A DNA stretch of 64,000 bases from Candidatus Hydrogenedentota bacterium (GTDB taxonomy: Bacteria > Hydrogenedentota > Hydrogenedentia > Hydrogenedentales > JAEUWI01), in NCBI GenBank assembly GCA_016182605.1, contig JACPGE010000069.1, positions 124,001 through 188,000 of the forward strand, read 5' to 3'. The notes beneath the pieces were generated by a model that was not told where the DNA came from, made no database searches, and worked only from the letters and a program-made list of their open reading frames with translations. This document shows, piece by piece, positions 25,102 through 50,602 of the stretch (position 1 is the first letter of the stretch; each line of letters starts with the position of its first letter). Position numbers and translations under genes: made by a program.

Positions 25102-28005
25102 CTAGTTCGGGGCAGCCTCCGCCATTATCGCTTCCGCCTCTGCCTGGCGCGGGAAATCCAGACCGAAGATCCTGCTGTACTCCAGTGCAAGCGCGGCGTG
25201 CCGTTTGCCTTCCTCCGCTTCGCCCTGAGTTACGAGAAGTTTGCCGTAATCCAGCAAGAGCGTCGGATCGCCAGGGCGAATCTCCAGCGCGGCCCGAAGG
25301 TTCGAGTTACTGTTCTCCAGATCGCCCGTGCGCAACTGGGCAACCCCAAGGGTGTGCAATACGCCGGGATTCATCCCCATCTTCTCTTTGGCCTGCTGGG
25401 CCAAGCCCAGGGCCTCGGCGTCGTTCGCGCCGCTCATCAGCAGGCAATACGCAAGATTGTTCTGCGTGACCGGATCGCCGGGAGCAAGCTCGTTCAGTTT
25501 GCGGTACGCTTCCGTTGCCGCCTCCAGCCCCTCGGTCTTCTCCAGCAGACGCGCCCACTGGAACCAGGCACGGGGTTCGTTCGGATTGAGTTCCAGCGCC
25601 TTCGATATGGCTTCCCGCTCGCCCGCGCCGTCCTTGTGCTGACGCAACACGTTGGCGTACAGAAGCCAGACCGTGGCGTCCCCTTCCATCCGGGACACCA
25701 GCGCCCGCGCCTGCTCCGGGGCATCCTGGCGCGAGGGCGAAAGCGCGAGACTGGAGAATATCATCTGAAGCAGCAGCGGGTTGCTGCCAAGCTGCGCATC
25801 AACACGCATCAGCGCTGTGATCGCGCCATCGTGAAGCTGGGTAGCCTGGCACCCGGCGCCCACTAGAAAATCCACAAGCGCACCGCTTGAGTTGCCGAGT
25901 GCGGTGGCAAGCGCTGTCTCCGGGCCTTCCAGCGGCACGGCCTGGCCCATCGCGGCAAGCAGCATCAGCCCCATTCTTCCGCCTGCCGGCTCACTTTCGC
26001 CTTCCATCTGGAGGGAGGCGCGTGCGCCCTCAAGATTGCCCCCATGGGCCTGCGCCGCAGCCAGCATGAAGCGGTGCGCGGGGGCGACCATCTCCCGCGG
26101 CACGGCGCCACCCAGCGCCAAGGTCTCCTCCCAACGGCCGGCGAGCGCCGTTGCAAGCAACAGATAGGCATTGGCCGCGCCCTTCAAAGGCGAATCCTCA
26201 GCGACTCCGGAAAGCATCTGCGCAGCGTCCGCCGCCTTCTCCTGGTGAAGCAGCACGCCGCCCATGGCGATCTTGAGGGAGTCATCGCCGGAAACCGATT
26301 CCAGTCCCCGCTTCAGCACCTGCTCCGCAAGTGCAACATTGTGATCATCCAGATATGACTGAGATAAATTCCGTATGGCATCCGCAGAGTCCGGGAACAG
26401 GGTGTAGCTCGTCTCCGCGGCAAGTCGCGCCTCTTGCAGCAAGCCGCCTTCCCGCAGCGTTATGTACAGCAGCGTATGCGCCTCTGTGTTGCTGGGATAC
26501 AGCGAGATCTGTTTCTGAACCGCGCGCGCCCCAAATTCCGGCGTCTGCGCACGGCGGAACGCCTGCGAGATGTTGTAAAGGCTGACCGCCTCTTCAGGGT
26601 ACTCCTGCAGACACTGCGTAAGCACCTGGATGCCTCGCGCCCGCGCACGGGCCTTTGTCAGGCCATAGCCCAACATGTTGTAGCGTATCACCTTCATGCG
26701 ATCTTCCGCGGGCTGCCACTTCTGAAACTGCTCAACCATGCCCTGAAGATTGTTGTCCCGCACAAATGGAAAGAAGGCCTGAAGGTCCGGGTTGACTTCG
26801 ACCAACAACGAATCCGCAAGATCGCCGCGCCCCGCAAAGACCGCTGCCGAAAACAGCACCTCTTTAACGCCCTCCTCGCCGCCGGCAAGTATCGCGGCGT
26901 ACTTCTCCACCAGCGTCCCTATCGCCCCTTGGCGCCACAAATCCTTCCAGTCATTCTTGTCAAGTGTCGTAGCCGCCGGGCGAGACGCCGCCTGCGCCGT
27001 GTCTGTTGGAGCCGCACCGGCCGTGGTGCTCTCCAGAGCGCCGCTGGCGGGAAGCGTGCCGTGGTGCATGGCCACACTGAGCTTGTGTGCCACCGCGGCC
27101 TGCCGCGGGAGCAAGCGCGCCGCGGTCTGAAAGAACTGTGTGGCGGCCGTAAATTGCCCCTCTGCGAGCGCGGCACATCCCTGCACATAGTTGCCCCAGC
27201 CGGGGTCGCCCTTCAAATGGGAGACCGTGGTCAGCAGACCATTCACCTCGTCCTTGCGATCGGTCTGTATCAGCCCGCGGGCAAGCGAAAGCAAGACTTC
27301 CTTGTTCTCCGGCTCCGCCTTGAGCTGCCCCTCCAGTTCCGCAATATAGGCATCAAGCTTGTCTTGCATCGTATACAGATCGATGAGAATCATGCGTGCG
27401 GCAAGCGAAGCAGGATCAAGCGTCTCCAGCACCGATTGAAGCTCCGCCTCCGCCTGCTCCGGATGACCCTGGATAAGCAGCGCCATCGCCAGATTCACCC
27501 GCACATCGCTCGAATTTGGAAAGCGGGTCTTCATCGTGTTGAGATGGCCCACCACTTCGCCGATGCGGCCCTCGTTTATCATCAGGAAGGCCCGCAAGAT
27601 GCCCGCATACTCCGCGTTCACGCTGTCGAAGCGCTCCAGGATGGCATAGGCCTCCGCCAGCTTCGCCTGCACCAGCAGAATCTGAAGCGATTCGATATAG
27701 CCGTCCTCCAGCTTGCCATTGAGCGTCAACGCACGCCCATAGTGCTCCAGTGCGGGATCGTATTCCTGGTTCAGCCGCGCACACCGCCCCATACCCAGCT
27801 CCGCCTCGGCATTGTCCGCGTTGGCCGCAAGAGACTTCTCGTAGGAGGCCCGCGCCTCGGCCACTTTGCCAAGGCCAAGATAGGTGTCCCCCTCCTTCCG
27901 GTATTGATCGCTTCGTGTTTGACTGCATCCCACCAGAAGGGAAATGCTCAGCAGGACCGCCAACCCGGCCGCAAGGGAACGCGGCGCCAGTACTCGTATA
28001 CGCAT
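25102..28005 (-). CDS. Large TPR-repeat lipoprotein of the exosortase/PEP-CTERM locus (PrsT-like)
   Basis: A 967-aa lipoprotein: basic start, hydrophobic stretch and lipobox LLVGC around residues 22-26, then about 900 residues of TPR units (for example GDTYLGLGKVAEARASYEKS, EALALAQQAKEKMG-like and AEAYAILERFDSV pairs). Length and lipobox fit the PEP-CTERM-system TPR lipoprotein family found beside exosortases, thought to assist export or assembly of the sorted proteins or polysaccharide. The ATG at 28005 has GGAGA eight bases before it; the frame runs upstream through epsI without signal. Last gene of the operon, followed by a terminator. Confidence 0.82.
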   Translation of the reverse strand: MRIRVLAPRSLAAGLAVLLSISLLVGCSQTRSDQYRKEGDTYLGLGKVAEARASYEKSLAANADNAEAELGMGRCARLNQEYDPALEHYGRALTLNGKLEDGYIESLQILLVQAKLAEAYAILERFDSVNAEYAGILRAFLMINEGRIGEVVGHLNTMKTRFPNSSDVRVNLAMALLIQGHPEQAEAELQSVLETLDPASLAARMILIDLYTMQDKLDAYIAELEGQLKAEPENKEVLLSLARGLIQTDRKDEVNGLLTTVSHLKGDPGWGNYVQGCAALAEGQFTAATQFFQTAARLLPRQAAVAHKLSVAMHHGTLPASGALESTTAGAAPTDTAQAASRPAATTLDKNDWKDLWRQGAIGTLVEKYAAILAGGEEGVKEVLFSAAVFAGRGDLADSLLVEVNPDLQAFFPFVRDNNLQGMVEQFQKWQPAEDRMKVIRYNMLGYGLTKARARARGIQVLTQCLQEYPEEAVSLYNISQAFRRAQTPEFGARAVQKQISLYPSNTEAHTLLYITLREGGLLQEARLAAETSYTLFPDSADAIRNLSQSYLDDHNVALAEQVLKRGLESVSGDDSLKIAMGGVLLHQEKAADAAQMLSGVAEDSPLKGAANAYLLLATALAGRWEETLALGGAVPREMVAPAHRFMLAAAQAHGGNLEGARASLQMEGESEPAGGRMGLMLLAAMGQAVPLEGPETALATALGNSSGALVDFLVGAGCQATQLHDGAITALMRVDAQLGSNPLLLQMIFSSLALSPSRQDAPEQARALVSRMEGDATVWLLYANVLRQHKDGAGEREAISKALELNPNEPRAWFQWARLLEKTEGLEAATEAYRKLNELAPGDPVTQNNLAYCLLMSGANDAEALGLAQQAKEKMGMNPGVLHTLGVAQLRTGDLENSNSNLRAALEIRPGDPTLLLDYGKLLVTQGEAEEGKRHAALALEYSRIFGLDFPRQAEAEAIMAEAAPN

Positions 28006-28022
28006 CGACTCGGTCTCCAATC

Positions 28023-28649
28023 TTATGGAATCTGCTGGCGCACTACCGGCGCCAGGTTTCGCGCAAAATCTTCCAGGATCGCAAAAGTGGCCTCGGAACC
28101 CTGCCGGCCCACCGGCGCGCTTAGCTTGATCATCGCCGAGGTGGGGGCCCCAAACGTGAGCTGCGCCTTCGCCCAGTACCACGAGTTCAAAAAGTAATTG
28201 CCCGTATAGTGATCCCCCGTCTTGAACCAATAGAGGATGGCCTCTTCGTTGTTGCCGTGAACAAGCACCAGCCTCCGTGCGCTGAACTCGATCCCCACCG
28301 GAGCGGTGCTCTGATCGCGCACCTCCCAGCCCTGGCCCACCACACACACCTCCGGAAAGTGCAGGCTGCGCCGCGTCGTGCCCGCATAGACCAGCGTCAG
28401 CAGGATGGGCAGACTCTGGGGCGAATTGTACCGGCGCATGAGTATCGTACTCGTTTGCAGCGCCGCGCGCACGTCGTCGCCCACGTCTATATCTTCGCCC
28501 GTCTTGCGGTAACTGGCGATGTTGTCCGGCATCTCCAGCACCTCCGTCGCAGGCGCGGCTTCCGACGCCGCGTCATGCGCGTTCTGAATCAGCGTCTGGC
28601 CAAGGGCTATCGAGCACAGCGCAATAAGGGCGCCTATGCAAATCTTCAT
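28023..28649 (-). CDS. epsI: EpsI-family exosortase-associated protein
   Basis: A 208-aa protein with an N-terminal hydrophobic anchor (residues 1-18) and the EpsI (DUF3485) pattern: HFPEVCVVGQGWEV around residue 97, then AILYWFKTGDHYTGNYF around residue 137. In many exosortase systems EpsI is either fused to the exosortase C-terminus or encoded next to it; here it is separate. The ATG overlaps the exosortase stop (ATGA), a sign of coupled translation. Its exact biochemical role is not established. Confidence 0.9.
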   Translation of the reverse strand: MKICIGALIALCSIALGQTLIQNAHDAASEAAPATEVLEMPDNIASYRKTGEDIDVGDDVRAALQTSTILMRRYNSPQSLPILLTLVYAGTTRRSLHFPEVCVVGQGWEVRDQSTAPVGIEFSARRLVLVHGNNEEAILYWFKTGDHYTGNYFLNSWYWAKAQLTFGAPTSAMIKLSAPVGRQGSEATFAILEDFARNLAPVVRQQIP

Positions 28650-29554
28650 GATTCATCCTCCTTGCCCACGGGGGGAAGATACTTGCGCAACAGCGCCTCT
28701 GCCGTAAAGAGCATCGCAAACGCCACCGCAAATATGCCTATCCCCGAGATGTCGTGCAGCGTGCCCACCGCATACTCCGAGCCGAAGTGGTAGCCAACGA
28801 CACACAAAAACATGATCCGGATAATATTCGAAACGATCGCGATCGGCCCCGAAATCAGCAAAATGATAATCTTCGCGGAAAGACGCGTCTTGCTGATGTA
28901 CGCCATCAGCGTTCCAAAGGCAAGAAGCGCTATCAGGGAACGCAGGCCGCCGCACACCTCGCCCACCAGCACCTTGTCATTGCCAAAATGAACAAACGAT
29001 CCGTCCCGGATCATCGGATAGGTCAAAAGCTGCGCAAGTTGCACCGCCCCCTCCGTGGCCAGCAGTTTTATGTTCAGCACAATCGCCTGTGTGGCCGACG
29101 GCGGCAAGGGAATCATGAACAGCAGAAAGAAAATCGGAAACCAAAGCGTGCGCAGATAATCGCGCCCCAGAAAGGCCAGTACCAGTCCGGCAATCATTGG
29201 AACCATCGACAATTGGATGAAGATCCCAAAGCCCAGAAAATTCGAGATCAGCAGTCCAATACCCGACACGGCAATGAGTACGAGTCCAAGCACGCTCGGC
29301 CGGCGCTCCAGTTGGGCCAGCTCCCCGCGTGAACGCCAGACAAAGAAGAACGAAATGATGGGAATCAAGAACCCGTGCGAATAGTACGAGTCGGTCATGT
29401 TCCAATTGTAAAGCATCTCGCCCGACTCACGGCCGTAAATGACGGCAAAACAAACCAAACACATGATCCACAAGGCGTGAAATGCAATGCCCGGCCGTCT
29501 CGGCGTCTCCACGCCGCCATGCGCCACGGCCCGGTCTGCGTGCGATACACTCAC
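28646..29554 (-). CDS. Exosortase (membrane transpeptidase-like sorting enzyme)
   Basis: A 302-aa polytopic membrane protein with about eight helices. The catalytic residues are visible: Cys in VGEVCGGLRSLIALLAFG around residue 197, Arg in SNIIRIMFLC around residue 237, and His in LHDISGIGIF around residue 264. Exosortases cleave PEP-CTERM signals and probably transfer the protein to an anchor. The start is a GTG at 29554 overlapping the previous stop (GTGA), with GGAGAG six bases upstream; the longer frame is inside the TPR gene. A plausible substrate is encoded at 40607-41473. Confidence 0.93.
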   Translation of the reverse strand: MSVSHADRAVAHGGVETPRRPGIAFHALWIMCLVCFAVIYGRESGEMLYNWNMTDSYYSHGFLIPIISFFFVWRSRGELAQLERRPSVLGLVLIAVSGIGLLISNFLGFGIFIQLSMVPMIAGLVLAFLGRDYLRTLWFPIFFLLFMIPLPPSATQAIVLNIKLLATEGAVQLAQLLTYPMIRDGSFVHFGNDKVLVGEVCGGLRSLIALLAFGTLMAYISKTRLSAKIIILLISGPIAIVSNIIRIMFLCVVGYHFGSEYAVGTLHDISGIGIFAVAFAMLFTAEALLRKYLPPVGKEDES

Positions 29555-32500
29555 GGGTTGCTCTCCTGCTGCTCTTGCAGTTGGGGTTCCAACTGCTGCA
29601 ACCGCGAAGCGGTCGCAGTGTCGTTGGCGGCCAGTTTGCGCCGGGCAGAATCGAAATACTGCCGCGCCAGTTCCATATTGCCCAGCGCCAGGTGGCATTC
29701 CGCTGTGGCCGCATCGATAGAGGCCGTCGTAAGCGGAATTGAATTCGATATGAACCCAAAGTCATCCAGCGCTTCCTGATACCGCTTTGCCGTCAAAAGC
29801 AGGTACCCGCGAAGCGTGCGGTACTCCACCTTCGGATCCAGCGTGACCGCCGATTCCACAGCCGCCAGTGCATCCGCCTCTTTCCCGGGCGTTTGCGAAA
29901 GCATGTACGCCTTGCGGTAAAGAATGTCCGCACTCGCCGGCTCCACCGCAAGAAAGCGGTCGCACAGGCCAATGACCGCGCCAACATTGCGGTTCATCGA
30001 CTGCACCTCTATCAATCCGCGAAGCGCGGGCAGGTAATCCGGCAGCAAAAACAGCGCACGGGTAAAGGCGCTCGAAGCTTCGCCCACACCCGCTGCCGTG
30101 CGCTGGCTCAGGCTCAACTGCCCCACGAGCGTCCATGCCTCAAAATTGTCCTGCGCGCGCTCCGCAAATGACTTGGCAAGCGCAAGAGCTTCATCGGGCC
30201 GCCCCTGCACTATCTTCAGACGCGCCAGATTTTGCAGAGCGGTGTAGTTGTCCGGCGCCGCATCATAGGCCTGTTGTGCGTCCGCCGCGGCCTGTGTCAC
30301 GTCTTCACTTCGGCTCAGCAGAAGACCGCGCAACTCCGCAAGCCGCAAAGACGCCTCTGGATCGCCGCCGGACAGGCCGGCCAAACGGTTGTAGAAAACC
30401 TGACCGCGGCTCAGTTGCCGCGTGCTGGCATACGCACGCGTAATCAACTCCAGGGCGACCGGATCGTCAGGGTAATCCCGCAACACCGATTCACACAGGG
30501 CGATCACCTCGTTAAACCGGTTCAGCCGGTTCAACACGTCTGCCTTGGCCAGTTTCGCGCGCAACATGTCTGGGTCCGCCGCGATGGTCCGATCGGCATA
30601 CTCAAGCGAGGAATTGTATTGGCCTTTGCGCGAATAGATTTCGGCCATTAGCATAAGTGCGACCGGGTTCTCCGGATCGGTGGCCAACACGTTTGTTCCC
30701 ACTGCCAGCGCCTCATCCAGATGCGCAATCCCCTGGTCGACCAGCGCACGCGCTTCATGAATCTTCAGCCCCCCGTATTCGGGTGCGATCTGCCGGATCT
30801 CTGCAATCAGCGCGTCCCCCCGTGCCCGATCCTGAGCCTCGCCAGGCCGTGCTACCGCCCGGGCAATGTCCAGCTTCTGATCCAAAAGCGTATGCTGCCA
30901 TTCGCTGTCCGCGGACGCCGCCGCAAGCGCCGCATCGATCTGCCGGAGCGCGGCATCCGTGTCGCCGTGTTGCCGCGCAAGCCGGATCAGCTCTAGTTCA
31001 AGGGCCTGTTTCCCTTCATCGTCCGTCTGCGCCGCAAGTTCCCCCTGCAGGATCGCTTGCGCCTTGTCCAGCTTGCCCTGGCCCGCCATAAAGCCGGCCC
31101 AGCGCACCGCGTCCTCCCGCGTAAATTCCGGCCGCGCCCGATCCTCGGCATAATACCCCATGGCCGCCTCGGCATCTTCGCGCATCAGCGCAAGCGCCGC
31201 CTGCTGCCGCGCAAAGGTCACACTGGGAATGCCATTTTCCACTGCCTTGGCGATCAGGCCCAGCGCGCGCTCCGCGTCCTGGCGCGCCAGCAGCCGGTCG
31301 AGCAAGGTGGCGTACGGGTAAACACTGTCGGGCGCATCCGCGATGGCCCGCTCAAGCAGTTGCTCTGCAAGAAGCCCCTCCTCGGAATCCGCCGCCAGGC
31401 CGCTTTGGGAAAGCAGGCTGCGCGCCGTCAGTATCAGCGATTCCTGGCTCGGCCGCTCCGCATTCTCAAGCACGGCCCGCGCGCTTAGCATCAGATCCGA
31501 AGCGCTCTTCACCACGCCAAATGAATTGTCATAAAGGAGCTTCGCTTTCACGTCGTCTGGACGATTGCGCAAATAGCGCTCCAATGCCAGTTTGGCCTCC
31601 TCCCGCTTCTCCAGGCGCAACATGGCGACCGCCTGATAAAACTGCGCACGGGTAAAATCCGGGCTGCTTTCCACCACCGTCGTAAGCTTTGCCAACGCCG
31701 GTTCATTCTCCTCCGCCACCATCAGGTGCCGGGCGTCAAGATACTCCAGGATCAACTGGTGCTCCGGATAGGCGCCCTTGTACTCCTCCACCAGCTTGGC
31801 AAGATCCTCCACCCGCTCCTGAAGCAGATACAACTCCGACAAACTCAGGTAGATCTGAGGTGAATTCAGCCGCGTTGTGCGATCCATCGTCTCAAGCAAC
31901 GCAATCGCGTCGTCTACCCGCCCCAGACGCTCATAGGCAAAGGCAAGATTCAGATACGCCTGCGCATTCGACGGGGCGGACGCTATGGCCTTCTCCGCAT
32001 ACGAACCCGTGCCGCTGTAATCGCCCCGCTCCGTGGCAAGACGGCTCGCTATCAAGAGCAGTTCCGCGTTCTCTGGCGCAAGCGCAAGCGCCTTCTGCAC
32101 AAACCGATCGGCTTCCGCATATTCCTTCAACTCCATCGAAAAGCGCGCCGCCTGCTCCAGCATCGCCGGGTCGTCCGCATATCGCGCCAAGCCGTCCGCT
32201 ACCAATTTGCGCGCATCCGTCTCTTGCCCCGCATGGTGCAGCCAATATGCGAGCCGGCCGTATTCATCCCCCGGCGCCGTCTTCAACGGAAGCAGTTTCT
32301 CGAAAAGTTCCCGCGCCTCACTTCCCCGGCCAAGCCGATCCAGCGCCTTCGCCCGGTAATACATGATCTCTGTTTCATCCGGGAAGTAGCTTTGCAGGTA
32401 GCTTGCAGCATACTCCAATTCCACGAAAAGGCCATGCTGCTCGTCGAAATGCAATACCCGGCGGACCTTCTCCATGTCATACGGGGGCAGGCTGGCCACC

Positions 32501-32796
32501 TTGAACATCGCCTTGCCCGCGTCAGTCAATGTCTTGGGCCGGTTCAGGGGAAGCTTGAGACATGCATCAATATACTTCTCCAGCACCGCCACATCCTTCT
32601 CATTGCTGATGAGGTACCAGGCAAACTGACGCTTCGCCGCAAGCCATTCCCCCCTGTCAAAAGAGGCCTGCCCGCTCGCCAAAAACTGCCGGCTCCGGTA
32701 CTGCGGCCAATACCGAAAGGCGCCCAGTGCGGAGACGCCCAGCAGAATGACCAGCAACAGAAACACGGCAACCGCTATGAATGCTTTTCGCGACAT
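29551..32796 (-). CDS. Giant membrane-anchored TPR protein of the exosortase locus
   Basis: A 1081-aa protein with a single N-terminal transmembrane helix (about residues 5-28) and otherwise almost entirely TPR-like helical hairpins, such as GQASFDRGEWLAAKRQF, ALDRLGRGSEARELFEKLL, AYLNLAFAYERLGRVDDAI and AEIYSRKGQYNSSLEYADR. It is probably periplasmic and acts as a protein-protein scaffold. The stop overlaps the exosortase start by four bases. It is a second, non-lipidated TPR giant in the same operon as the 967-aa lipoprotein. Specific partner unknown. Confidence 0.8.
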   Translation of the reverse strand: MSRKAFIAVAVFLLLVILLGVSALGAFRYWPQYRSRQFLASGQASFDRGEWLAAKRQFAWYLISNEKDVAVLEKYIDACLKLPLNRPKTLTDAGKAMFKVASLPPYDMEKVRRVLHFDEQHGLFVELEYAASYLQSYFPDETEIMYYRAKALDRLGRGSEARELFEKLLPLKTAPGDEYGRLAYWLHHAGQETDARKLVADGLARYADDPAMLEQAARFSMELKEYAEADRFVQKALALAPENAELLLIASRLATERGDYSGTGSYAEKAIASAPSNAQAYLNLAFAYERLGRVDDAIALLETMDRTTRLNSPQIYLSLSELYLLQERVEDLAKLVEEYKGAYPEHQLILEYLDARHLMVAEENEPALAKLTTVVESSPDFTRAQFYQAVAMLRLEKREEAKLALERYLRNRPDDVKAKLLYDNSFGVVKSASDLMLSARAVLENAERPSQESLILTARSLLSQSGLAADSEEGLLAEQLLERAIADAPDSVYPYATLLDRLLARQDAERALGLIAKAVENGIPSVTFARQQAALALMREDAEAAMGYYAEDRARPEFTREDAVRWAGFMAGQGKLDKAQAILQGELAAQTDDEGKQALELELIRLARQHGDTDAALRQIDAALAAASADSEWQHTLLDQKLDIARAVARPGEAQDRARGDALIAEIRQIAPEYGGLKIHEARALVDQGIAHLDEALAVGTNVLATDPENPVALMLMAEIYSRKGQYNSSLEYADRTIAADPDMLRAKLAKADVLNRLNRFNEVIALCESVLRDYPDDPVALELITRAYASTRQLSRGQVFYNRLAGLSGGDPEASLRLAELRGLLLSRSEDVTQAAADAQQAYDAAPDNYTALQNLARLKIVQGRPDEALALAKSFAERAQDNFEAWTLVGQLSLSQRTAAGVGEASSAFTRALFLLPDYLPALRGLIEVQSMNRNVGAVIGLCDRFLAVEPASADILYRKAYMLSQTPGKEADALAAVESAVTLDPKVEYRTLRGYLLLTAKRYQEALDDFGFISNSIPLTTASIDAATAECHLALGNMELARQYFDSARRKLAANDTATASRLQQLEPQLQEQQESNP

Positions 32797-33122: not shown

Positions 33123-35489
33123 TCACCGTCTTGGCGTGCCCTCTTCGTCCTCGAAGGACAGCAAAACCACCTCCGAGGCAGGCCGATCCACAACCTCCGG
33201 CGCCTCGTCCAATACGCGAATCTCCGGCACATCGTCATCGAAACCCGATACCGCCCCAGGATAGGCCTGCTGCGGGCCCCGCTCCATGTAGGCATAGTAA
33301 AGCTGCTGGTTGTTCTTCATGTAGCCGCCGCGCATGCTGCGCACCCCATTGAGCGCCACACCCAAGATCCGGCCGCCAAGCTGCTCGATGTCCCGGATGC
33401 ACCGCGTTATCATGCCCGCACTGGACTTCTTCACCCCCACCACAAGCGCGACAAAGTCCACGTTGGGCGCCAGCATCTTCGCGTCCGCCATCAACAGCAT
33501 CGGTGGCGAATCGATAATCGTATGATCAAAATGATCGTCCGCCCACTCCAGAAAATCCTCCATCTCCCGCGATCCCAGGCGGCCCGCCAGATCGATGCCG
33601 CTCAGGCCCGGCCCGATGATCCCCAGGTTCTCAAAGGCCGTCCGGCGGATGAAATCCTCGGGCGCCCCCTCGCCGTTGAGCAGTTCCACCAGTCCCGCCG
33701 CCGGTTTCAGATTGAAGCGGGGCTCCACACTCGGCCGCTGAGAACTCAAGTCCACCAGCAGCACCCGCCGGTTCGCCTGCTCCAGCGCCACCGCAAGATT
33801 GCACGCAAACGTCGTCTTGCCATCGCCCAAGGTCGGGCTCGCGACCAGCAGCGACCGCACCTCCCCCGCATTGTCCACCGGATAGAGCATGCGCGCCATG
33901 ACCCGGCGGAATTCATCCGCCGCAAGCGAATTGGGAAAATCCGCCGTAACCAGTGGCAGCTCATCCTTGCTGTTGAGCTTCTTGTCTTCCGACGCATGCG
34001 GAATGCATGCAATCACCTGGTGGCTCGTCACCAGGCTCAGATCCTGCGGCGTCCGTATGTTGCGATCCAGCAGCTCTATAAGCACGCCAATCGCAACCCC
34101 AATACCCAGGGAAACCGCCACCGCGGCCACTGCAAGCAACAAGCGCTGCTTCACATCCGGATTCGGCGGCACCATCGGCGTCGCTTGAACGGTCACCCGC
34201 GCGGGGGCATTCTCCTCCAATTGCAGATCCGTAATCTGGCGCCGCAACTCGCTCAGCGTATCCCGCGTCTCCAGCTCTTTCGTCCGAAGCTTCTCAAGCT
34301 GCGCAAGCTTCTGCGCATTCTCCTGCGCACGCGCCATGTACTGCGCCTGGTAGTCGTCCAGAAGCTTCTGAAACTTCGCCATCCGCGTTTCGGCCTCTTC
34401 TTTTCGGCCCTCCGCGTCCTGCAGCCGCTCTTCCAGACCCGTGCGCACCGAAGAAAGCACCTCCTGGCGCACCTGCTGCTCCACACGCGCAACCTCGCCA
34501 CGCAAGCTCTTGAGCTTCTTGCCTTCCGCATTGACCTGCGGGCTGCCCTCGCGCTGGCCCTGCTGGATCTGGGCAAAACGCGATTCCGCCGCCACAAGAC
34601 TCTGCCGGATACCGCTTACCCGGCTATCCGAGTTCAACTGGGTTTCCACATTGAAGTCAAACACACGCTGCGAAGGCGATTGAGCAACCTGCTCCTGAAG
34701 CGCGCTCAACTGGGCCGTCTTCTCCGACAGATCGCCGATCTCGCTCTCTACCCGGGAAAGCTCCTCCTGCGCCGTAATCAACGCCTTCTGATACTCCTTG
34801 TCCTCCTCCGTGTCCCGCGGGCCGCTGTCCGGATTGCCCCCCATGTCCGCTTCCAGTTCCGCAACGTTCGCGGCCGTCTCATTCAACAGCGACTCCAGCT
34901 TGTCCCGCTCCTTCGTAAGCGCGCTGACCCGCTGAAAATTGGCCATCGAATCCTGGCCCGACGAATACTCCATATATTGATTGATCGTCGATTCCAGTAT
35001 CAGCAGCGCTTCATTGCGGCCCTTCAGCGAACACATCACCTGAACCACTTCGCTCTTCCCCTGCGAAACCACGGAAAGGCAGCCCCGCAAGAACGCCAGC
35101 TTGTCCACCGCCTTCGCCACCTCCGGTATCTCCCGGACCTTCGCGTCTTCCGCAACACGCTGCAGGATCGTGTTGCCCCTGATCGTGTTGATCTCCGTCG
35201 CAACATACTTGTCGTAGTTCACGCTGCGCGCCGAGTTGCTGTTGCTGGTGTCCAAAATCCGCGGCTGCACATAGCTGTACCGGAGTTGCGCCACCGCCGT
35301 GTACTTGACCGGACTCAGGATCCACGCCGCTATCGAAAGCGGTATCGCGAGGCCGATCCCAACCAGGATCATGATCGGCAGCCGCATCGTGATCAGCCGC
35401 TTGAGGTTAAAACTCGGGCCCCGGGGCGCTTTGGACACGCCCGAGTCCTGCTGGAAATCATCCACGACCGTCGAAAAATCCTTAGACAT
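33123..35489 (-). CDS. Polysaccharide co-polymerase fused to BY-kinase (Wzz/Wzc-like)
   Basis: A 788-aa protein. An N-terminal cytoplasmic tail and first helix (about 37-58) are followed by a Wzz-like and coiled-coil periplasmic region (about 60-460), a second helix (about 468-490), and a bacterial tyrosine-kinase-like ATPase domain (about 530-740). Walker A is SPTLGDGKTTFACNLA and Walker B FDHTIIDSPPML. The Walker A' element reads LLVDLSSQRPS, so the second Asp of the usual DxDxR pattern is Ser. The C-terminus has only a loose tyrosine cluster (YMKNNQQLYYAY). It controls polysaccharide export with the Wza-like gene just upstream. Kinase activity is therefore uncertain. Confidence 0.9.
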   Translation of the reverse strand: MSKDFSTVVDDFQQDSGVSKAPRGPSFNLKRLITMRLPIMILVGIGLAIPLSIAAWILSPVKYTAVAQLRYSYVQPRILDTSNSNSARSVNYDKYVATEINTIRGNTILQRVAEDAKVREIPEVAKAVDKLAFLRGCLSVVSQGKSEVVQVMCSLKGRNEALLILESTINQYMEYSSGQDSMANFQRVSALTKERDKLESLLNETAANVAELEADMGGNPDSGPRDTEEDKEYQKALITAQEELSRVESEIGDLSEKTAQLSALQEQVAQSPSQRVFDFNVETQLNSDSRVSGIRQSLVAAESRFAQIQQGQREGSPQVNAEGKKLKSLRGEVARVEQQVRQEVLSSVRTGLEERLQDAEGRKEEAETRMAKFQKLLDDYQAQYMARAQENAQKLAQLEKLRTKELETRDTLSELRRQITDLQLEENAPARVTVQATPMVPPNPDVKQRLLLAVAAVAVSLGIGVAIGVLIELLDRNIRTPQDLSLVTSHQVIACIPHASEDKKLNSKDELPLVTADFPNSLAADEFRRVMARMLYPVDNAGEVRSLLVASPTLGDGKTTFACNLAVALEQANRRVLLVDLSSQRPSVEPRFNLKPAAGLVELLNGEGAPEDFIRRTAFENLGIIGPGLSGIDLAGRLGSREMEDFLEWADDHFDHTIIDSPPMLLMADAKMLAPNVDFVALVVGVKKSSAGMITRCIRDIEQLGGRILGVALNGVRSMRGGYMKNNQQLYYAYMERGPQQAYPGAVSGFDDDVPEIRVLDEAPEVVDRPASEVVLLSFEDEEGTPRR

Positions 35490-35520: not shown

Positions 35521-36780
35521 TTAGAGTTCGTCGGCCAGTGAACCCAGATCCTGGAACACGTCCAATATGTTCAACTGGTTCTGAAGTTTGATTTCGTCGC
35601 CATCTTCGTACAGCCGGTTCGTCCGCTCATCCACGTAGTACGCGTCCCACGCCTGGGTGTACAGCCCGAGCGCCTGCTGGCCCACAGACAAAATCGGCGA
35701 AATCACCCCCGTGCCGCGCTGAATGAATTCTTGCAGCGTCACCAAACGCTTTCTCGGCACATAGATCACATCCCCAGGCTTGAGCAGCACATCGCCACCA
35801 TTCTTCAGGATATGCTTCGCGTTCACCAGCAGCACCTCCGTCTCGTCTTTCCCCTTTTCGCGCATCAGAATCACCTGGCTCAACCGGCCGCTGGTCTCCA
35901 GAAAGCCGCCCGCATTCGCCAGCATCTGCAACAACGTCGCGTTCTCGCTCAACGCATATACGTTCGGCGTCCGCACCTCCCCAAGCACATACACCAGGTT
36001 GACCCCCTGCGGTATGTATATCGTGTCGCCCGGGAACACCGGCGCGTCGGAATCATGCGCGCCAGACTGCTGAAGTTCCTTCAAATCATATTCCGCAACC
36101 TGCCGCTCGCCCTCCACATGGCGTATTACGAACGCCTTCACCAACTGGCCCTGGCCACTGATAAAACTGTCTCCGGCGCGCTGGTTGATCCGAAGCCCCC
36201 CCGCCTGCGTGATCCCCGCCAGCAGGGTCAGCGGTTTCGTGTAGGGGTATTCCGCAGGATGGCTCACATCGCCCATCACCGTAAACACCTGGCTGCGCGC
36301 ATCCGTGATCTGCAGGCTTACCTCCGCATCCACATACAGCGCAGAATAGGCCTCGCGCACCAGCGCCGTCGCCTCTTCACGCGTCTTCCCCATCACCTTC
36401 ACGTCGGATATCCACGGCAGCGAGATGTAACCGTCATGACGCACCACCACCTCCGTGTTCAGCGTCTCATCATCGAAACTCCGGAACGAAAGCATGTCGC
36501 CCGATCCGATCCGGTACATGGAAAACAAATCCCCCTGCTTCCATTTCTCGAAATCCACCGGAGACGCAAGCTGCGCTTCCTCCACCTTCGGCAACTCCAC
36601 ATTCTCCCCAACCACCTCCGATTTCGGCACCACGGCCTGATCCTCGATCGCGCTATTGGTGTTTCCGGGAGCCACCGTTACCGCACTCGTCCCAGGCCCC
36701 GTCGTGCTGCACCCCAGCATCGTAAGCATGGCGCCAAGGGTCAACAAGCGGATATCGCGCTTTGCACTATTCCACATCAT
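35521..36780 (-). CDS. Polysaccharide export outer-membrane lipoprotein (Wza-like)
   Basis: A 419-aa lipoprotein: lipobox LTMLGC around residue 22, a linker rich in Val/Glu, the Poly_export domain around residues 85-165 (YRIGSGDMLSF, then VRHDGYISLPWI), and two SLBB domains (VFTVMGDVSHPAEYPY around 180; VYVLGEVRTPNVYAL around 270). It forms the outer-membrane channel for capsule or exopolysaccharide. Two adjacent ATGs at 36780/36777 are preceded by GGGGAG at seven bases; the upstream frame is unlikely. It lies 17 bases after the activator gene and 31 bases before the BY-kinase. Confidence 0.93.
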   Translation of the reverse strand: MMWNSAKRDIRLLTLGAMLTMLGCSTTGPGTSAVTVAPGNTNSAIEDQAVVPKSEVVGENVELPKVEEAQLASPVDFEKWKQGDLFSMYRIGSGDMLSFRSFDDETLNTEVVVRHDGYISLPWISDVKVMGKTREEATALVREAYSALYVDAEVSLQITDARSQVFTVMGDVSHPAEYPYTKPLTLLAGITQAGGLRINQRAGDSFISGQGQLVKAFVIRHVEGERQVAEYDLKELQQSGAHDSDAPVFPGDTIYIPQGVNLVYVLGEVRTPNVYALSENATLLQMLANAGGFLETSGRLSQVILMREKGKDETEVLLVNAKHILKNGGDVLLKPGDVIYVPRKRLVTLQEFIQRGTGVISPILSVGQQALGLYTQAWDAYYVDERTNRLYEDGDEIKLQNQLNILDVFQDLGSLADEL

Positions 36781-36796
36781 GATTCGACTCCCCTTC

Positions 36797-37867
36797 CTAT
36801 TGGGATGAATGGTTCGATTTGCCGATGCCATAAGCATCAATCCGGCGCAACAGCGAACTGTAACTGGTCCCTAACAGTTTCGCCGCCTTCCGCCGGTTCC
36901 ACAACGTGTAGTCCAACGTCTGTTCTATCGCTTCCCGCTCCGCCTTCTCCGCCGCCTGCCGGGCCACTTCCTTCAGGGACATGATCTTCCGTTCGCCCGC
37001 CACGGGGGCATGCGAAGCTTCCAGCTCGGGCGCCAACGGCTGCGGCACGCGCGCAGGCGCGGCATGCAACGGCTTGTCCTCTTCAAGCAACGACTCCTCC
37101 CGGCCCGTCGTGACATACTTCTTCATCCGGCCGCTCAGCTCGCGCACATTCCCCCAAAACGGCTGCTCCCGAAGCAGATGCAGCATCTCCTGAGACAGCG
37201 GCACATAGGGCTTCTTCAGCATCTTCGATATATTGTAGTTGAAATGCTCCGCCAGCAATGGAATGTCGTCCGGGCGCTCCCGCAACGATGGCACCTGGAT
37301 TACCACCTCCCGCAAGCGGTACGAAACATCCTTCCGGAGCCGCCCCTGCTCGACCGCCTTGTCCAATTCAAGATTCGTCGCCGCCACGATCCGCACGTCC
37401 GAATGGATCGGCTCGGTGCCCCCAACGCGGTAAATCGGTTCCCCATCGAGCACCTGAAGCAACTTGCTCTGCACATTCGCCGCCGTCTCACTGATCTCGT
37501 CGAGAAATATCGTGCCCTCGTGCGCCAATTCAAAGCGCCCCGGTTTCGCGGCCTCCGCACCCGTAAACGCCCCCCGTTCATACCCAAACAACTCGCTCTC
37601 CAGAATATCCTCCGGAATGCTCGGGCAATTCACCTTGATGAAGGGCTTCCCATACCGCGGCGACAGCCGGTGCAGCAAGCGGGCCACGATGTCCTTCCCC
37701 GTACCCGTCTCACCCAGAATCAACACGGAAAGATCCACCTGGGCAAGACGCTTTATCAGGGCGCGAACCTCCACAATCCTCGGATCGCGCCCGATAAGTT
37801 TTTCATGCAACGGGGCAAAGACGTCATCGTCTTGAAAGGTGTTGTGAGATGCTTGATCGATAGCCAA
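36797..37867 (-). CDS. Sigma-54-dependent transcription activator without receiver domain (PrsR-related)
   Basis: A 356-aa enhancer-binding protein. Only about 25 residues precede the AAA+ domain: Walker A GETGTGKD around residue 55, the sigma-54-contacting GAFTGA around residue 100, Walker B GTIFLDEI around residue 118 and RLREVVIQVPSLRERPDDI around residue 185. A linker and a Fis-type helix-turn-helix (RRKAAKLLGTSYSSLLRRI) complete it. PEP-CTERM loci often encode a related activator, PrsR, that carries an N-terminal receiver and partners a kinase PrsK. Here both receiver and kinase are missing, so input is unclear. It heads the export operon; nearby -24/-12 elements suggest local targets. 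Confidence 0.92.
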   Translation of the reverse strand: MAIDQASHNTFQDDDVFAPLHEKLIGRDPRIVEVRALIKRLAQVDLSVLILGETGTGKDIVARLLHRLSPRYGKPFIKVNCPSIPEDILESELFGYERGAFTGAEAAKPGRFELAHEGTIFLDEISETAANVQSKLLQVLDGEPIYRVGGTEPIHSDVRIVAATNLELDKAVEQGRLRKDVSYRLREVVIQVPSLRERPDDIPLLAEHFNYNISKMLKKPYVPLSQEMLHLLREQPFWGNVRELSGRMKKYVTTGREESLLEEDKPLHAAPARVPQPLAPELEASHAPVAGERKIMSLKEVARQAAEKAEREAIEQTLDYTLWNRRKAAKLLGTSYSSLLRRIDAYGIGKSNHSSQ

Positions 37868-37944: not shown

Positions 37945-37961
37945 AGCAATAGCCATACCAC
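37945..37961 (-). promoter_or_regulatory. Candidate sigma-54 promoter for the activator/export operon
   Basis: On the minus strand the sequence reads TGGTAT, five bases, TTGCT, with the -24 GG and -12 GC exactly ten bases apart as sigma-54 requires. The -24 box deviates from TGGCAC at two positions. The start point would be near 37934, about 67 bases before the activator gene. It would imply autoregulation. Confidence 0.45.
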
Positions 37962-37990
37962 TCCGGCTTGGCGCGCACCTCTTGGGCAGG

Positions 37991-38019
37991 CACTACATGA
38001 TAACACACTATATGTAGTG
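37991..38019. promoter_or_regulatory. Inverted repeat CACTACAT/ATGTAGTG, candidate activator-binding site
   Basis: Eight-base arms at 37991-37998 and 38012-38019, with a nested shorter pair ACACTA/TAGTGT (38005-38020). It lies about 30 bases beyond the minus-strand sigma-54-like element. The piece TACATGATAA (37994-38003) recurs exactly at 40441-40450, and ACTACAT recurs at 40358-40364, both just upstream of the PEP-CTERM promoter. Function is inferred. Confidence 0.4.
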
Positions 38020-38538
38020 TTGAAAGCATTTCTTTGCGCCAATCTAAACTCCAGTATCCTTCAAATTCTACACGCCTTTCCCCAAAAAGGCCAGCTAATT
38101 ACTCAACCGTGAACACTTGTTTGCCCGCTTCGCCTAAAATCTGGCCACTGCCCCGCAGCCTCCAAAGCATCCCCATAGCAAAACCCCAACCTCACGGTTT
38201 CCAGGCAGGTCCAAGACTGGCCTCCGCCCAACGGCCCGCGAAGCCCTCCCCACGAATGGTCGTTTCTACAAGTAGTGGATAGGCAACATGGCGATAAATC
38301 TGCGAACACGACGAATCTTGACTTCTCGCACGCCCTTTGCCATACTCACACGGTAAGACCGCAAGGAAAGCACGCTTGCCGGAAAGTCAAAAGTTGTTCA
38401 TTCGGGCAATACAGTTATGAAGATCTCTTAATGCCTTGCTCCATACGCAAGAAGTTAGGGGGGGCGTTTTTCCTCCTAACAAATTGCAGCAAATATACTT
38501 ACAGCCAATTTCCGGCTTCGCCGGGGAGCCCTGCCGCT

Positions 38539-38555
38539 CTGGCACGAAACTGGCT
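38539..38555 (+). promoter_or_regulatory. Sigma-54 promoter for the GGDEF-like/SGNH genes
   Basis: CTGGCACG, four bases, TGGCT: the -24 half is a perfect TGGCACG, the -12 half has one change from TTGC, and the GG-GC spacing is the required ten bases. The start point would be near 38566, 15 bases before the GGAGGTG ribosome-binding site of the 38597 gene. Confidence 0.65.
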
Positions 38556-38596
38556 CTATTTTGACGGTCTGAAATCTTCAGGAGGTGCGTTGACTC

Positions 38597-38989
38597 GTGC
38601 AAACGGAATTTACGATCCTACGCCAGTTGCTGCAGTATGAGTTGCACGGAGCCGAAAGGCACCGTCGCTTCGTCTCCTTGGTGATGATGACGACCGATGA
38701 AGGCGTGTCCGGGCTGCGGAACTATATGAACGCCCACATTCGCGACAGCGATGTCATCGCCGATTTCGACAGCTCCATCGCCGTCTTGATGGGGGAAACG
38801 GACGGTACCGGCGCCCTCACCGCCTGTGACCGCTACAAAAACTTTTTTGAACGCGAACTCGATTTGCGCTTCGCCGTGGTCACCTATCCCTCCGATGGCG
38901 GAAAAGTCGAAAAACTCATCCAGATGGCCTACCGCCGCCTTCGCAAGGCGAAAGACGGTACCAGCGGCGAAGTCGTCTACGCCGACTAA
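38597..38989 (+). CDS. Small degenerate GGDEF-like domain protein
   Basis: A 130-aa protein resembling a shortened nucleotide-cyclase fold: an N-terminal helix-strand (HRRFVSLVMMTTDEG), MNAHIRDSDVIADFDSSIAVLM around residues 43-65 (like the 'R.sD.iar.g.deF.ill' stretch of GGDEF domains), and a C-terminal LRFAVVTYPSDGGKVEKLIQMAYRRLRKAK, like their last strand and helix. The GGDEF signature loop is absent, so no cyclase activity is expected. Similar short proteins occur near exopolysaccharide genes. Start is a GTG at 38597 with GGAGGT ten bases before it. Confidence 0.6.
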   Translation: MQTEFTILRQLLQYELHGAERHRRFVSLVMMTTDEGVSGLRNYMNAHIRDSDVIADFDSSIAVLMGETDGTGALTACDRYKNFFERELDLRFAVVTYPSDGGKVEKLIQMAYRRLRKAKDGTSGEVVYAD

Positions 38990-39039
38990 TCCACACCCGC
39001 TCACCAGACAGTGCGTGTGGCGGCCAATTTCGGGGCGAT

Positions 39040-40179
39040 ATGACCAATCGTCGACGTATCCTCACGAGTGTCCTCGCAGGACTCCTGCCAGCAATCCTGC
39101 TCGCCTCCCTCATCGAAACGGGCGCGCGTCTCCTCTTGACCCTCCGCCCCGATCCCCTCTTTGAGCGGGCCGTGCAAGACCTTAGTGGTTTGCTCAGCGG
39201 ATCAGGCACCTCCTTTCGCTTCATCTCCGACCCAAGGCTCGCTTACCGGCTCAAACCCGATTTTCTGCTCCAGAGCCCCGATGGCGGAATCACCACCCAT
39301 AACGAGGCAGGCTTCCGAACCACCCCGTTCGACGAAAACCTGTTCCGGGACACCACCTTCCGCCTCCTGTGCATTGGCGGCTCTACCACGTACGGCGTGG
39401 CCGTAACGGCCAATGAAACCACCTACCCCGCCCAATTAGAGGCCCTTCTCGCCCGTGTTCCCCTCCGCCCGCCCTTCAAACACGTGCGCGCCCTCAATTT
39501 GGGTGTCGGCGGCTACACCACGCAAGAAATGAAGGAAACCCTGCGTGACTGGATCGGCAAACTCAAGCCCCATGCCGTACTGATCCACTGCGGCGTCAAT
39601 GATGTCGCCCCCAGACTCTTCAGCGAAATCTCCTGCGACTACAGCCACTTCCGGAAACCTCTCAAATTGCCCCGGATAACAGCCTGGCAGCGCCCCCTCC
39701 TCTGGTCGCGCGCCGCCACCTATTCCGCATACCGCCTCGGCTGGATTCAACCACTCACCCTCCAAACCCTTACCCAGAAACAACTGCCCCGGCCCGCCGC
39801 CGCCGCCGCCGCACTGGGGAAAAACGGCCCCGAATGCTTCCGGCAAAACGTGATCGACATGGTGAAGATGGCTCAGGACGCCCAAGCCAAAGTGCTCCTC
39901 ATCACCGAAGCCTACCTCCTCCATCCCGACTTCGAACCCAAAGATCCCGATGCCAAAGCCCTCGAGGCCCTTTACCAGAAAGGCCTCGATCAACACTCAG
40001 AGGCGCTCCGGGAGCTCACCGCGGAGCTGAACTGCGGCCTCGCCGATCTCGCACGCGACTTCCCCCTCGCAAGATGGCTCTTCGTCGATCCCATCCATCT
40101 CAACAAAAATGGCAACACCGTCAAGGCCCGGCTCATTGCACACGCCCTCTTTCCCGATCATATTCCCAAAGGGACCTGA
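39040..40179 (+). CDS. Membrane-anchored SGNH/GDSL-family hydrolase
   Basis: A 379-aa protein with an N-terminal transmembrane helix (about residues 8-30) and an SGNH hydrolase domain: catalytic Ser in CIGGSTTYGV around residue 115, block II Gly in NLGVGGYTTQEM around residue 158, block III Asn in CGVNDVAP around residue 188, and the terminal DPIHLNKNG Asp-His pair around residue 350. Such enzymes often remove or transfer acyl groups on polysaccharides, which would suit this locus; the substrate is unknown. It follows the GGDEF-like gene by 50 bases and probably shares its sigma-54 promoter. Confidence 0.87.
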   Translation: MTNRRRILTSVLAGLLPAILLASLIETGARLLLTLRPDPLFERAVQDLSGLLSGSGTSFRFISDPRLAYRLKPDFLLQSPDGGITTHNEAGFRTTPFDENLFRDTTFRLLCIGGSTTYGVAVTANETTYPAQLEALLARVPLRPPFKHVRALNLGVGGYTTQEMKETLRDWIGKLKPHAVLIHCGVNDVAPRLFSEISCDYSHFRKPLKLPRITAWQRPLLWSRAATYSAYRLGWIQPLTLQTLTQKQLPRPAAAAAALGKNGPECFRQNVIDMVKMAQDAQAKVLLITEAYLLHPDFEPKDPDAKALEALYQKGLDQHSEALRELTAELNCGLADLARDFPLARWLFVDPIHLNKNGNTVKARLIAHALFPDHIPKGT

Positions 40180-40356
40180 GCCCGGCAGCCCATCCTTTCT
40201 CTTGCAATGGAATCAATGCACTGCTATACTTCATCCTTCCTCAAGATACGGTCTTCCGTTCTATCGAAAAGCTGCAAAACTTGCCGTATACTGAGAAAAT
40301 AGGTTCATTGTCTAAAGTTAATGCCAAGTCTGCCGAACTAATAAGTGGTATTTTTT

Positions 40357-40374
40357 GACTACATCATGCATGTG
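40357..40374. promoter_or_regulatory. Candidate upstream activator site for the PEP-CTERM gene
   Basis: GACTACATCATGCATGTG contains an imperfect inverted repeat (ACAT, five bases, ATGT) and shares ACTACAT with the inverted repeat at 37991-38019. It lies about 105 bases upstream of the -24 box at 40478, a normal distance for enhancer-binding-protein sites. Inference only. Confidence 0.35.
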
Positions 40375-40477
40375 AAGAGCGTACGCAGACGCACCAAGAG
40401 CTGTTCTGAAGCGGGAAAAAATCCCCAAGCTCCGCAATTATACATGATAAAATCAATTAAGACAGATGTGGCTGCCC

Positions 40478-40495
40478 TTGGCATTGATGTTGCTT
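40478..40495 (+). promoter_or_regulatory. Sigma-54 promoter of the PEP-CTERM protein gene
   Basis: TTGGCATTGATGTTGCTT matches the sigma-54 consensus TTGGCAC-N5-TTGCW at nearly every fixed position, with the GG-GC spacing exactly ten. The predicted start near 40505 leaves a leader of about 100 bases containing a GACCC/GGGTC hairpin (40565-40579) and an AGGAGG ribosome-binding site. The rest of 40180-40606 holds no gene that I can see. Confidence 0.8.
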
Positions 40496-40606: not shown

Positions 40607-41473
40607 ATGTCACTTAAGAGAGCACTGCAATTGACGGCTCTCGCTGTCTGCGTCGGTATCTCCACTTCGGCTGGAGCCATCACGACCGACGGCAACTGGA
40701 GCGATTGGTTCGCATGGTCTGCGGGCGGTCCCCCGGTAGGCGCCGGCAACAATGCCACCGCCGGCGGTAACAACTGGAATGCAGGCGGGCCCGATCTTTT
40801 TGCTCCGGGCGTGGTCTATCAGTCTGTGCCCGATGGCACCTCCCCGGGTAGCGGCGGCCAGGATTATGATATCGAAGCCGTCATGTTGTTCTTCGACGAC
40901 AACACCGGCCGTCTTCACTTTGGCATGGTAACGGGCTTCGATCCCGCCGGTGCCTTCGGCGCGGGTGGCCCCCACTACGCTGGCGATGTTTTCTTCGGTC
41001 TGGGTGGCGCCCCGGCGTCTGACCTTGCCGTCACCGTAGGTACCGAAGTTACTGCCGCCAACGACTTTGGCGCCCGCTTCGGCCAGCTCTTCGGAAACGG
41101 CGGATGGTCGACCGAATCTGTCAATGTCCCGGCGCACGTGGCTGCTGCCGATCCCTACCGCGTGGATGAAGACGCGGCCGGCGCCATCGACCTGACCGTC
41201 GCGCGTGCCCTCTCCGTTAGCTGGGGCACCAACGTCAACGGTTCGACCGAACACAACTTCCTCGAAATCTCCTTCCTGCTCGATGCCCTCGAAATCGAAG
41301 CCGTCACTGGCGATAACGGCGGTATCTCGCTCCACTGGACCATGCTCTGCGGTAACGATGTCGTAAACTTCGTCAGAGAAGAACCCTTGGCTCCGCTGCC
41401 CGAACCGGCGACCATCGCCCTCTTCGGCATGGGCTTGGCCGGTGTTGCCCTGCGCAAGCGCTTCTTCGGTTAA
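40607..41473 (+). CDS. PEP-CTERM-anchored secreted protein, probable exosortase substrate
   Basis: A 288-aa protein: signal peptide (about 24 residues, cleavage near SAGA), a Gly/Asn-rich start (NATAGGNNWNAGGPDLF), a beta-rich body similar in style to other PEP-CTERM proteins of unknown function, and a C-terminal sorting signal. The signal comprises PLPEPATIALFGMG, the rest of the hydrophobic segment, and a basic end LRKRFFG. Exosortase is encoded 11 kb away in the same locus. AGGAGG stands eight bases before the ATG, and a strong terminator follows the stop. Confidence 0.92.
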   Translation: MSLKRALQLTALAVCVGISTSAGAITTDGNWSDWFAWSAGGPPVGAGNNATAGGNNWNAGGPDLFAPGVVYQSVPDGTSPGSGGQDYDIEAVMLFFDDNTGRLHFGMVTGFDPAGAFGAGGPHYAGDVFFGLGGAPASDLAVTVGTEVTAANDFGARFGQLFGNGGWSTESVNVPAHVAAADPYRVDEDAAGAIDLTVARALSVSWGTNVNGSTEHNFLEISFLLDALEIEAVTGDNGGISLHWTMLCGNDVVNFVREEPLAPLPEPATIALFGMGLAGVALRKRFFG

Positions 41474-50526: not shown

Positions 50527-50602
50527 GATGCACTCCAATAGGATGTAACCGGGTCAGTTGGCGCGAGTCTAATCGGGGTGCGTTCGCCCACCATGTTTGC
50601 TG

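Follow-up and report, generated by a model that had tools for sequence, protein, structure and literature searches.

A predicted sigma-54 regulon at a Hydrogenedentota exosortase/PEP-CTERM locus and a palindrome shared by many of the related promoters

Introduction

Does sigma-54 control of PEP-CTERM genes, as proposed for Proteobacteria, also operate in a distant phylum and, if so, through which regulators? The question is raised by a 64,000-nt stretch of DNA (hereafter the window) from a Candidatus Hydrogenedentota bacterium (genome label G000), in which three -24/-12 elements lie around the gene of a sigma-54 activator: one before the unit that encodes this activator, a Wza-like export protein and a BY-kinase-type protein, one before a GGDEF-like/SGNH unit and one before a PEP-CTERM gene. 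Our comparative evidence argues, with a probability of about 0.82, that all three act as sigma-54 promoters within a single regulon serving the Hydrogenedentota exosortase/PEP-CTERM system. A local sigma-54 regulon over the three units, forming part of a wider PEP-CTERM regulon, is a prediction well supported by conservation.

A first-pass annotation of the window had pointed to control by RpoN with PrsK/PrsR in Proteobacteria, and this literature lead was right in substance. There, a motif 1 followed by a sigma-54 motif 2 precedes 99 of 167 PEP-CTERM genes, and PrsR, PrsK and PrsT match the distribution of these motifs, in Proteobacteria only among the species studied (Haft 2006, PMC1569441). 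The same work predicted sigma-54 control for Proteobacteria and said that further PEP-CTERM regulators await discovery. Experimental proof of a -24/-12 promoter and of rpoN1-dependence has since come from a PEP-CTERM gene, pepA of Aquincola tertiaricarbonis (PMC9850573).

Results

Sigma-54 promoters are recognised by their established -24/-12 consensus, TGGCACGNNNNTTGCW, and we scored sites by their matches out of 12 against it. The three elements are as follows.

37945..37960, minus strand: predicted sigma-54 promoter of the activator-Wza-BY-kinase unit, TGGTATGGCTATTGCT, 10/12, predicted start at about 37934
38540..38555, plus strand: predicted sigma-54 promoter of the GGDEF-like/SGNH unit, TGGCACGAAACTGGCT, 11/12, predicted start at about 38566
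40479..40494, plus strand: predicted sigma-54 promoter of the PEP-CTERM gene, TGGCATTGATGTTGCT, 10/12, predicted start at about 40505

Each element faces its gene and has, within a TGGCAC/TTGCW context, the exact GG-N10-GC spacing that the first-pass annotation had described. Its view of the PEP-CTERM element as nearly full consensus has to be corrected, since this scores 10/12 and it is the GGDEF-like promoter (11/12) that comes nearest to consensus. The genome does encode rpoN, which had been named as a check (sigma-54 DNA-binding domain, E = 2.8e-62). Directly before the rpoN frame lies an 11/12 sigma-54-like site (G000:C10:84048-84063; L001:527-542), which could mean self-control of rpoN, though the leader would be very short.

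By sheer number such sites are at chance level, both in the window (7 of at least 10/12 vs 6.8 expected from shuffles) and genome-wide, where allowing one mismatch gives 72 matches vs 69 for the reversed pattern. Because raw counts equal chance, the case rests on position and conservation. As to position, the 730-bp divergent region is expected to hold about 0.07 sites of at least 10/12 and the 428-bp region 0.035, counting both strands. As to conservation, a paralog of the window PEP-CTERM gene on contig C51 keeps an 11/12 site, the rest of its upstream DNA being poorly conserved. We also considered, and rejected, a structured RNA leader in front of the window PEP-CTERM gene: Rfam gave no match at gathering score and weak matches at chance level only, and the C51 paralog shows no conservation of the leader.

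Our phylum sample comprised 68 genomes, all of one order, and an activator ortholog occurs in 31 of them and in 6/11 families. Of the activator orthologs, 14/25 have a match of 10/12 or better in the 300 bp upstream, vs 2.1% of random windows, 0/25 on the antisense strand and 0/25 with the reversed pattern, and in one further activator locus (L060) a full 12/12 match lies about 292 bp upstream. Several of the remaining loci carry a PEP-CTERM gene directly upstream of the activator, so that the latter may share its promoter. The divergent GGDEF-like gene keeps a match of 10/12 or better in 6/7 syntenic loci and one of 9/12 in the remaining locus. This conservation gives good support to the earlier claim that the regulon covers the polysaccharide export unit and the unit of the modifying hydrolase.

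PEP-CTERM genes were sampled from the own genome plus ten relatives; 78 of 96 regions were parsed and 18 left out, and a heuristic based on likeness to a signal peptide, on ATG and on a ribosome site picked the start codons. Of these genes, 50/78 have a match of 10/12 or better in the 400 bp upstream, at least 11 matches are reached in 26 and 12/12 in 6, compared with 0/78 on the antisense strand and 1/78 for the reversed pattern. Among other long open reading frames (ORFs) the figure is 9/185, and 4 of these 9 are activator promoters or duplicates missed by our filter. The enrichment over other genes (Fisher p about 2e-24, all 9 control sites counted) can only be taken as indicative since the genomes are related. 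In genomes where we found no activator, sites before PEP-CTERM genes number none in G029 and G053, 1/2 in G056, 2/4 in G058 and 1/1 in G040.

Upstream of the sigma-54 sites, usually 80-160 bp before the -24 box, we found a shared palindrome, TTGTCA-N4-TGACAA. Word counts in the DNA upstream of 72 promoters give 35 with TGACAA and 6 with TGTCA-N4-TGACA (shuffles never exceed 2 for the latter), and a matrix learned on this DNA by expectation-maximisation scores above 8 bits in 85% of the 72 promoters vs 4-8% of shuffles. Since training and scoring used one set of promoters, we made a held-out test: among held-out PEP-CTERM genes of activator-bearing genomes, 7/10 have a sigma-54 site and 6 of those 7 a palindrome. 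Good palindromes are also strongly positioned, with 92% falling within 80-160 bp upstream vs 41% if they were spread uniformly. Their median distance to the -24 box is 109 bp for PEP-CTERM genes, 133 for GGDEF-like genes and 148 for activators (five of them exactly 148), the activator spacing being 146-148 in most orthologs. The window itself contains two candidates.

38100..38115, no strand assigned: predicted activator-binding palindrome, TACTCAACCGTGAACA, 13.5 bits, centred 147 bp upstream of the activator -24 box
38395..38410, plus strand: possible palindrome remnant, TGTTCATTCGGGCAAT, weak at 2.6 bits, at the place (137) of a good palindrome in relatives

An exact genome-wide search for palindrome plus promoter matched 35 times across 60 genomes and never with the pattern reversed, and 28 of the 35 fall in 15/25 activator-bearing genomes, where the loci inspected lie mostly before PEP-CTERM or GGDEF-like genes. 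Of the seven loci in genomes lacking the activator, two precede type IV pilin genes and others look like chance. These two (L287 and L291, from G016 and G008) are pilin-like genes with a similar GTCA-N4-TGA and a sigma-54 promoter, with no activator in the genome; their promoters are perhaps under PilR-type control. A separate locus (L046:10287-13329) encodes a secreted-looking protein of 1014 aa and has a sigma-54 site of 10/12 and a palindrome of 11.6 bits; our filter matched no PEP-CTERM tail in this protein, which is a possible regulon member.

The genes to which these promoters and their neighbourhood belong are listed here.

25102..28347, minus strand: second TPR protein at the cluster end, true start probably downstream of the listed start
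28023..28649, minus strand: EpsI-family exosortase partner
28646..29698, minus strand: exosortase, TIGR02602 over cut-off
29551..32796, minus strand: PrsT-like TPR protein, 131.5 bits against a cut-off of 312.2
33123..35489, minus strand: polysaccharide chain-length/BY-kinase-type protein
35521..36840, minus strand: Wza-like polysaccharide export protein (Poly_export, SLBB)
36797..37867, minus strand: sigma-54 activator, AAA+ with GAFTGA, lid and Fis-type helix-turn-helix (HTH), receiver domain absent
38597..38989, plus strand: GGDEF-fold protein of 130 aa, DSSIA at the active site, RxxD (residues 49-52) kept
39040..40179, plus strand: SGNH/GDSL hydrolase, N-terminal segment hydrophobic, separated by 50 nt from the GGDEF-like gene before it
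40607..41473, plus strand: PEP-CTERM protein, motif at residues 265-285

Window proteins score over cut-off as exosortase (TIGR02602, 180.9/105.55) and as PEP-CTERM domain (TIGR02595, 23.2/16; PF07589, 27.4/20.7); with 184.6 bits in TIGR03109, below the cut-off of 208, the exosortase is not assigned to the XrtA subtype. The order activator-Wza-BY-kinase is largely kept in related loci, and longer loci also keep TPR-exosortase-EpsI.

By its sigma-54 interaction AAA+ domain, GAFTGA motif and Fis-type HTH, the local activator is a bacterial enhancer-binding protein of the NtrC/PspF class. This receiver-less form occurs in 25/60 searched genomes (own included), and PEP-CTERM genes are found in all 25 vs 6/35 without it; in 25/25 activators there is no room for a receiver domain, and those scanned with Pfam show none. 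A sister clade has the receiver and nearly the same HTH (WNRRKAA..LG.SY..LRRRI), and the two form strongly supported clades in a tree that has one very long outgroup branch. The own genome holds a sister activator on contig C51 (G000:C51:62312-63070; L249:1872-3278). In the sister receiver, the position of the phosphorylated Asp is taken by Glu in 11/11 sequences shown. The gene before the sister activator encodes a receiver protein in which Pfam recognised no kinase domain; its C-terminal half resembles a histidine kinase without a clear phospho-His.

The 130-aa protein lacks the GG(D/E)EF active site of diguanylate cyclases (DSSIA is found there, and TIGR00254 gives 20.4/37.4 bits) and is predicted as a shortened GGDEF domain, with a predicted local distance difference test (pLDDT) score of 79.7 for the best model and at most 60 for the other four; the best PDB fold matches of the model are GGDEF domains. 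R49 and D52 of its RxxD motif are invariant in seven orthologs. Its family is present in 17/25 activator-bearing genomes and 2/35 others, and one of these two (G023) has an activator-like HTH fragment at the terminus of the same contig. Another degenerate GGDEF family, with proteins of about 187 aa and a coiled coil, has RxxD in 8/8 and GGDEF in none (L293-L297, L300-L302); in another bacterial family it is encoded divergently from the sister-activator operon, under a palindrome plus sigma-54 promoter. From the kept RxxD we infer that the 130-aa protein may be a receptor for cyclic di-GMP (c-di-GMP).

Discussion

How firmly do these data speak for sigma-54 promoters of a single regulon? Chance matches to a short consensus would explain why raw counts in window and genome are no higher than expected, yet they are contradicted by position, orientation and cross-genome conservation with antisense, reversed-pattern and other-gene controls. 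As a general account chance is thus refuted and hardly credible; it may hold for single sites, most of all the window PEP-CTERM promoter. Several observations do weigh against the reading of one regulon. The window GGDEF-like and PEP-CTERM promoters have no good palindrome (2.6 and 5.4 bits), so that the clear ones of the own genome are confined to the activator promoter and the C51 paralog (17.2 bits). Of the other PEP-CTERM genes in this genome, that on C45 has no site, those on C4 and C122 have 9/12 sites, and that on C32 has an 11/12 site but at 346 nt from the chosen start. G040 (83% complete) and G058 (78%) have palindrome and sister activator, and a full-length receiver-less activator was not found in them. 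Either of the two activators may be the one that binds the palindrome, or both may do so.

The last two points lead to a scenario in which the sigma-54 promoters are real and the receiver-bearing sister is the main palindrome-binding regulator, with the local receiver-less activator as one of its targets. In line with this, the sister reads DNA with nearly the same HTH, lies near PEP-CTERM genes in several genomes, has a divergent GGDEF-like gene whose promoter carries palindrome and sigma-54 site, and is the only activator found in G040 and G058, where palindromes are seen. However, it is the receiver-less activator that tracks PEP-CTERM presence (25/25 vs 6/35) and has a palindrome at fixed distance before its own gene. 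Incomplete assemblies may moreover miss it, as suggested by HTH-like fragments near contig starts in G023 and G056, and binding of both activators to one palindrome is equally compatible with the data. So to us, a leading role of the sister is possible but on the unlikely side.

Could the locus instead be the known PrsK/PrsR system in divergent form? The layout of upstream motif, sigma-54 site, PEP-CTERM gene, NtrC-like activator, TPR protein and exosortase is indeed that of the proteobacterial loci (Haft 2006). Against membership, the local activator has no receiver domain and reaches 264 bits with the PrsR model (TIGR02915, cut-off 502.6), the four full-length sister activators reach 287-326 bits, and PrsK (TIGR02916) is over cut-off in 0/60 genomes. 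The TPR protein at 29551-32796, scanned with the PrsT model (TIGR02917), also stays below its cut-off. Haft's motif 1 (17 nt, ending in TTTACA, mean 63 nt to motif 2), compared by its description, looks unlike our palindrome. We therefore rejected PrsK/PrsR membership and regard a divergent form of that system as highly improbable. The first-pass suggestion of the same logic in a distant lineage accordingly stands for the logic and falls for PrsK/PrsR themselves: as judged from sequence, the Hydrogenedentota regulon appears to work like the proteobacterial scheme but fails its defining protein tests, and the regulators differ.

What the regulon has in common with that of PrsR/PrsK/PrsT is an activator site plus a -24/-12 site before PEP-CTERM genes, a TPR protein and an NtrC-like activator near exopolysaccharide and exosortase genes; what sets it apart is an apparently different upstream motif and spacing, a receiver-less activator, the lack of PrsK and the inclusion of GGDEF-like genes. 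With pepA of Aquincola tertiaricarbonis it shares the -24/-12 promoter before a PEP-CTERM gene (predicted in our case), the host there being a proteobacterium with PrsK/PrsR. In the open literature on Hydrogenedentes and exosortase, and on PEP-CTERM and enhancer binding protein, we found nothing closer. PspF-type activators consist of AAA+ and Fis HTH with no N-terminal regulatory domain. The local activator has this same make-up, yet it differs in its score (TIGR02974, 263.7 bits, cut-off 443.55) and in its context of exosortase and polysaccharide export. PelD, a degenerate GGDEF receptor of c-di-GMP, resembles the 130-aa protein in its GGDEF fold without active site, the kept RxxD and the adjoining exopolysaccharide genes, whereas our protein stands alone, has a predicted sigma-54 promoter and matches PelD weakly in fold (rank 41).

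Returning to the reading of one sigma-54 regulon, we interpret it best as phosphorylation-independent, probably linked to c-di-GMP and serving PEP-CTERM proteins plus polysaccharide export. Sigma-54 RNA polymerase would sit at the -24/-12 boxes before PEP-CTERM genes and before the activator-Wza-BY-kinase and GGDEF-like/SGNH units, a step with strong comparative support. An activator of the local family would then bind TTGTCA-N4-TGACAA and open the promoter with its AAA+ ATPase. Since a palindrome precedes the activator's own gene, the level of the receiver-less activator may rise by self-activation or be started by the sister with its near-identical DNA-reading helix. Phosphorylation is probably not the means of control: a receiver is missing from the local activator, and that of the sister has Glu in place of Asp. 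The likeliest c-di-GMP link may be envisaged in the small GGDEF-fold proteins without active site, whose RxxD is invariant and whose genes diverge from either activator. As a result, the cell would make its surface proteins together with their export polysaccharide and a modifying hydrolase. A more speculative and rather doubtful twist is that the receiver-less activator and its Glu pseudo-receiver sister share one site, both being gated by c-di-GMP-binding degenerate GGDEF proteins which, as regulon members themselves, would close a feedback loop.

If correct, this would be a second concrete case, in another phylum, of sigma-54 control of PEP-CTERM genes, and one which comes with named candidates for the activator, a binding site open to testing, a list of predicted genes and a possible link to a second messenger. 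More than one origin or rewiring of sigma-54 control over exosortase cargo is suggested, and the sequence rule that emerges can be used to look for surface-matrix genes in this phylum, most of what is known of it coming from metagenomes.

Elsewhere in the window, in the ORF at 49933-50538, a simple repeat encodes a long stretch of (GE)n and, after it, a stretch of (KV)n, which may be a repeat-expanded linker or the product of a frameshift within the repeat.

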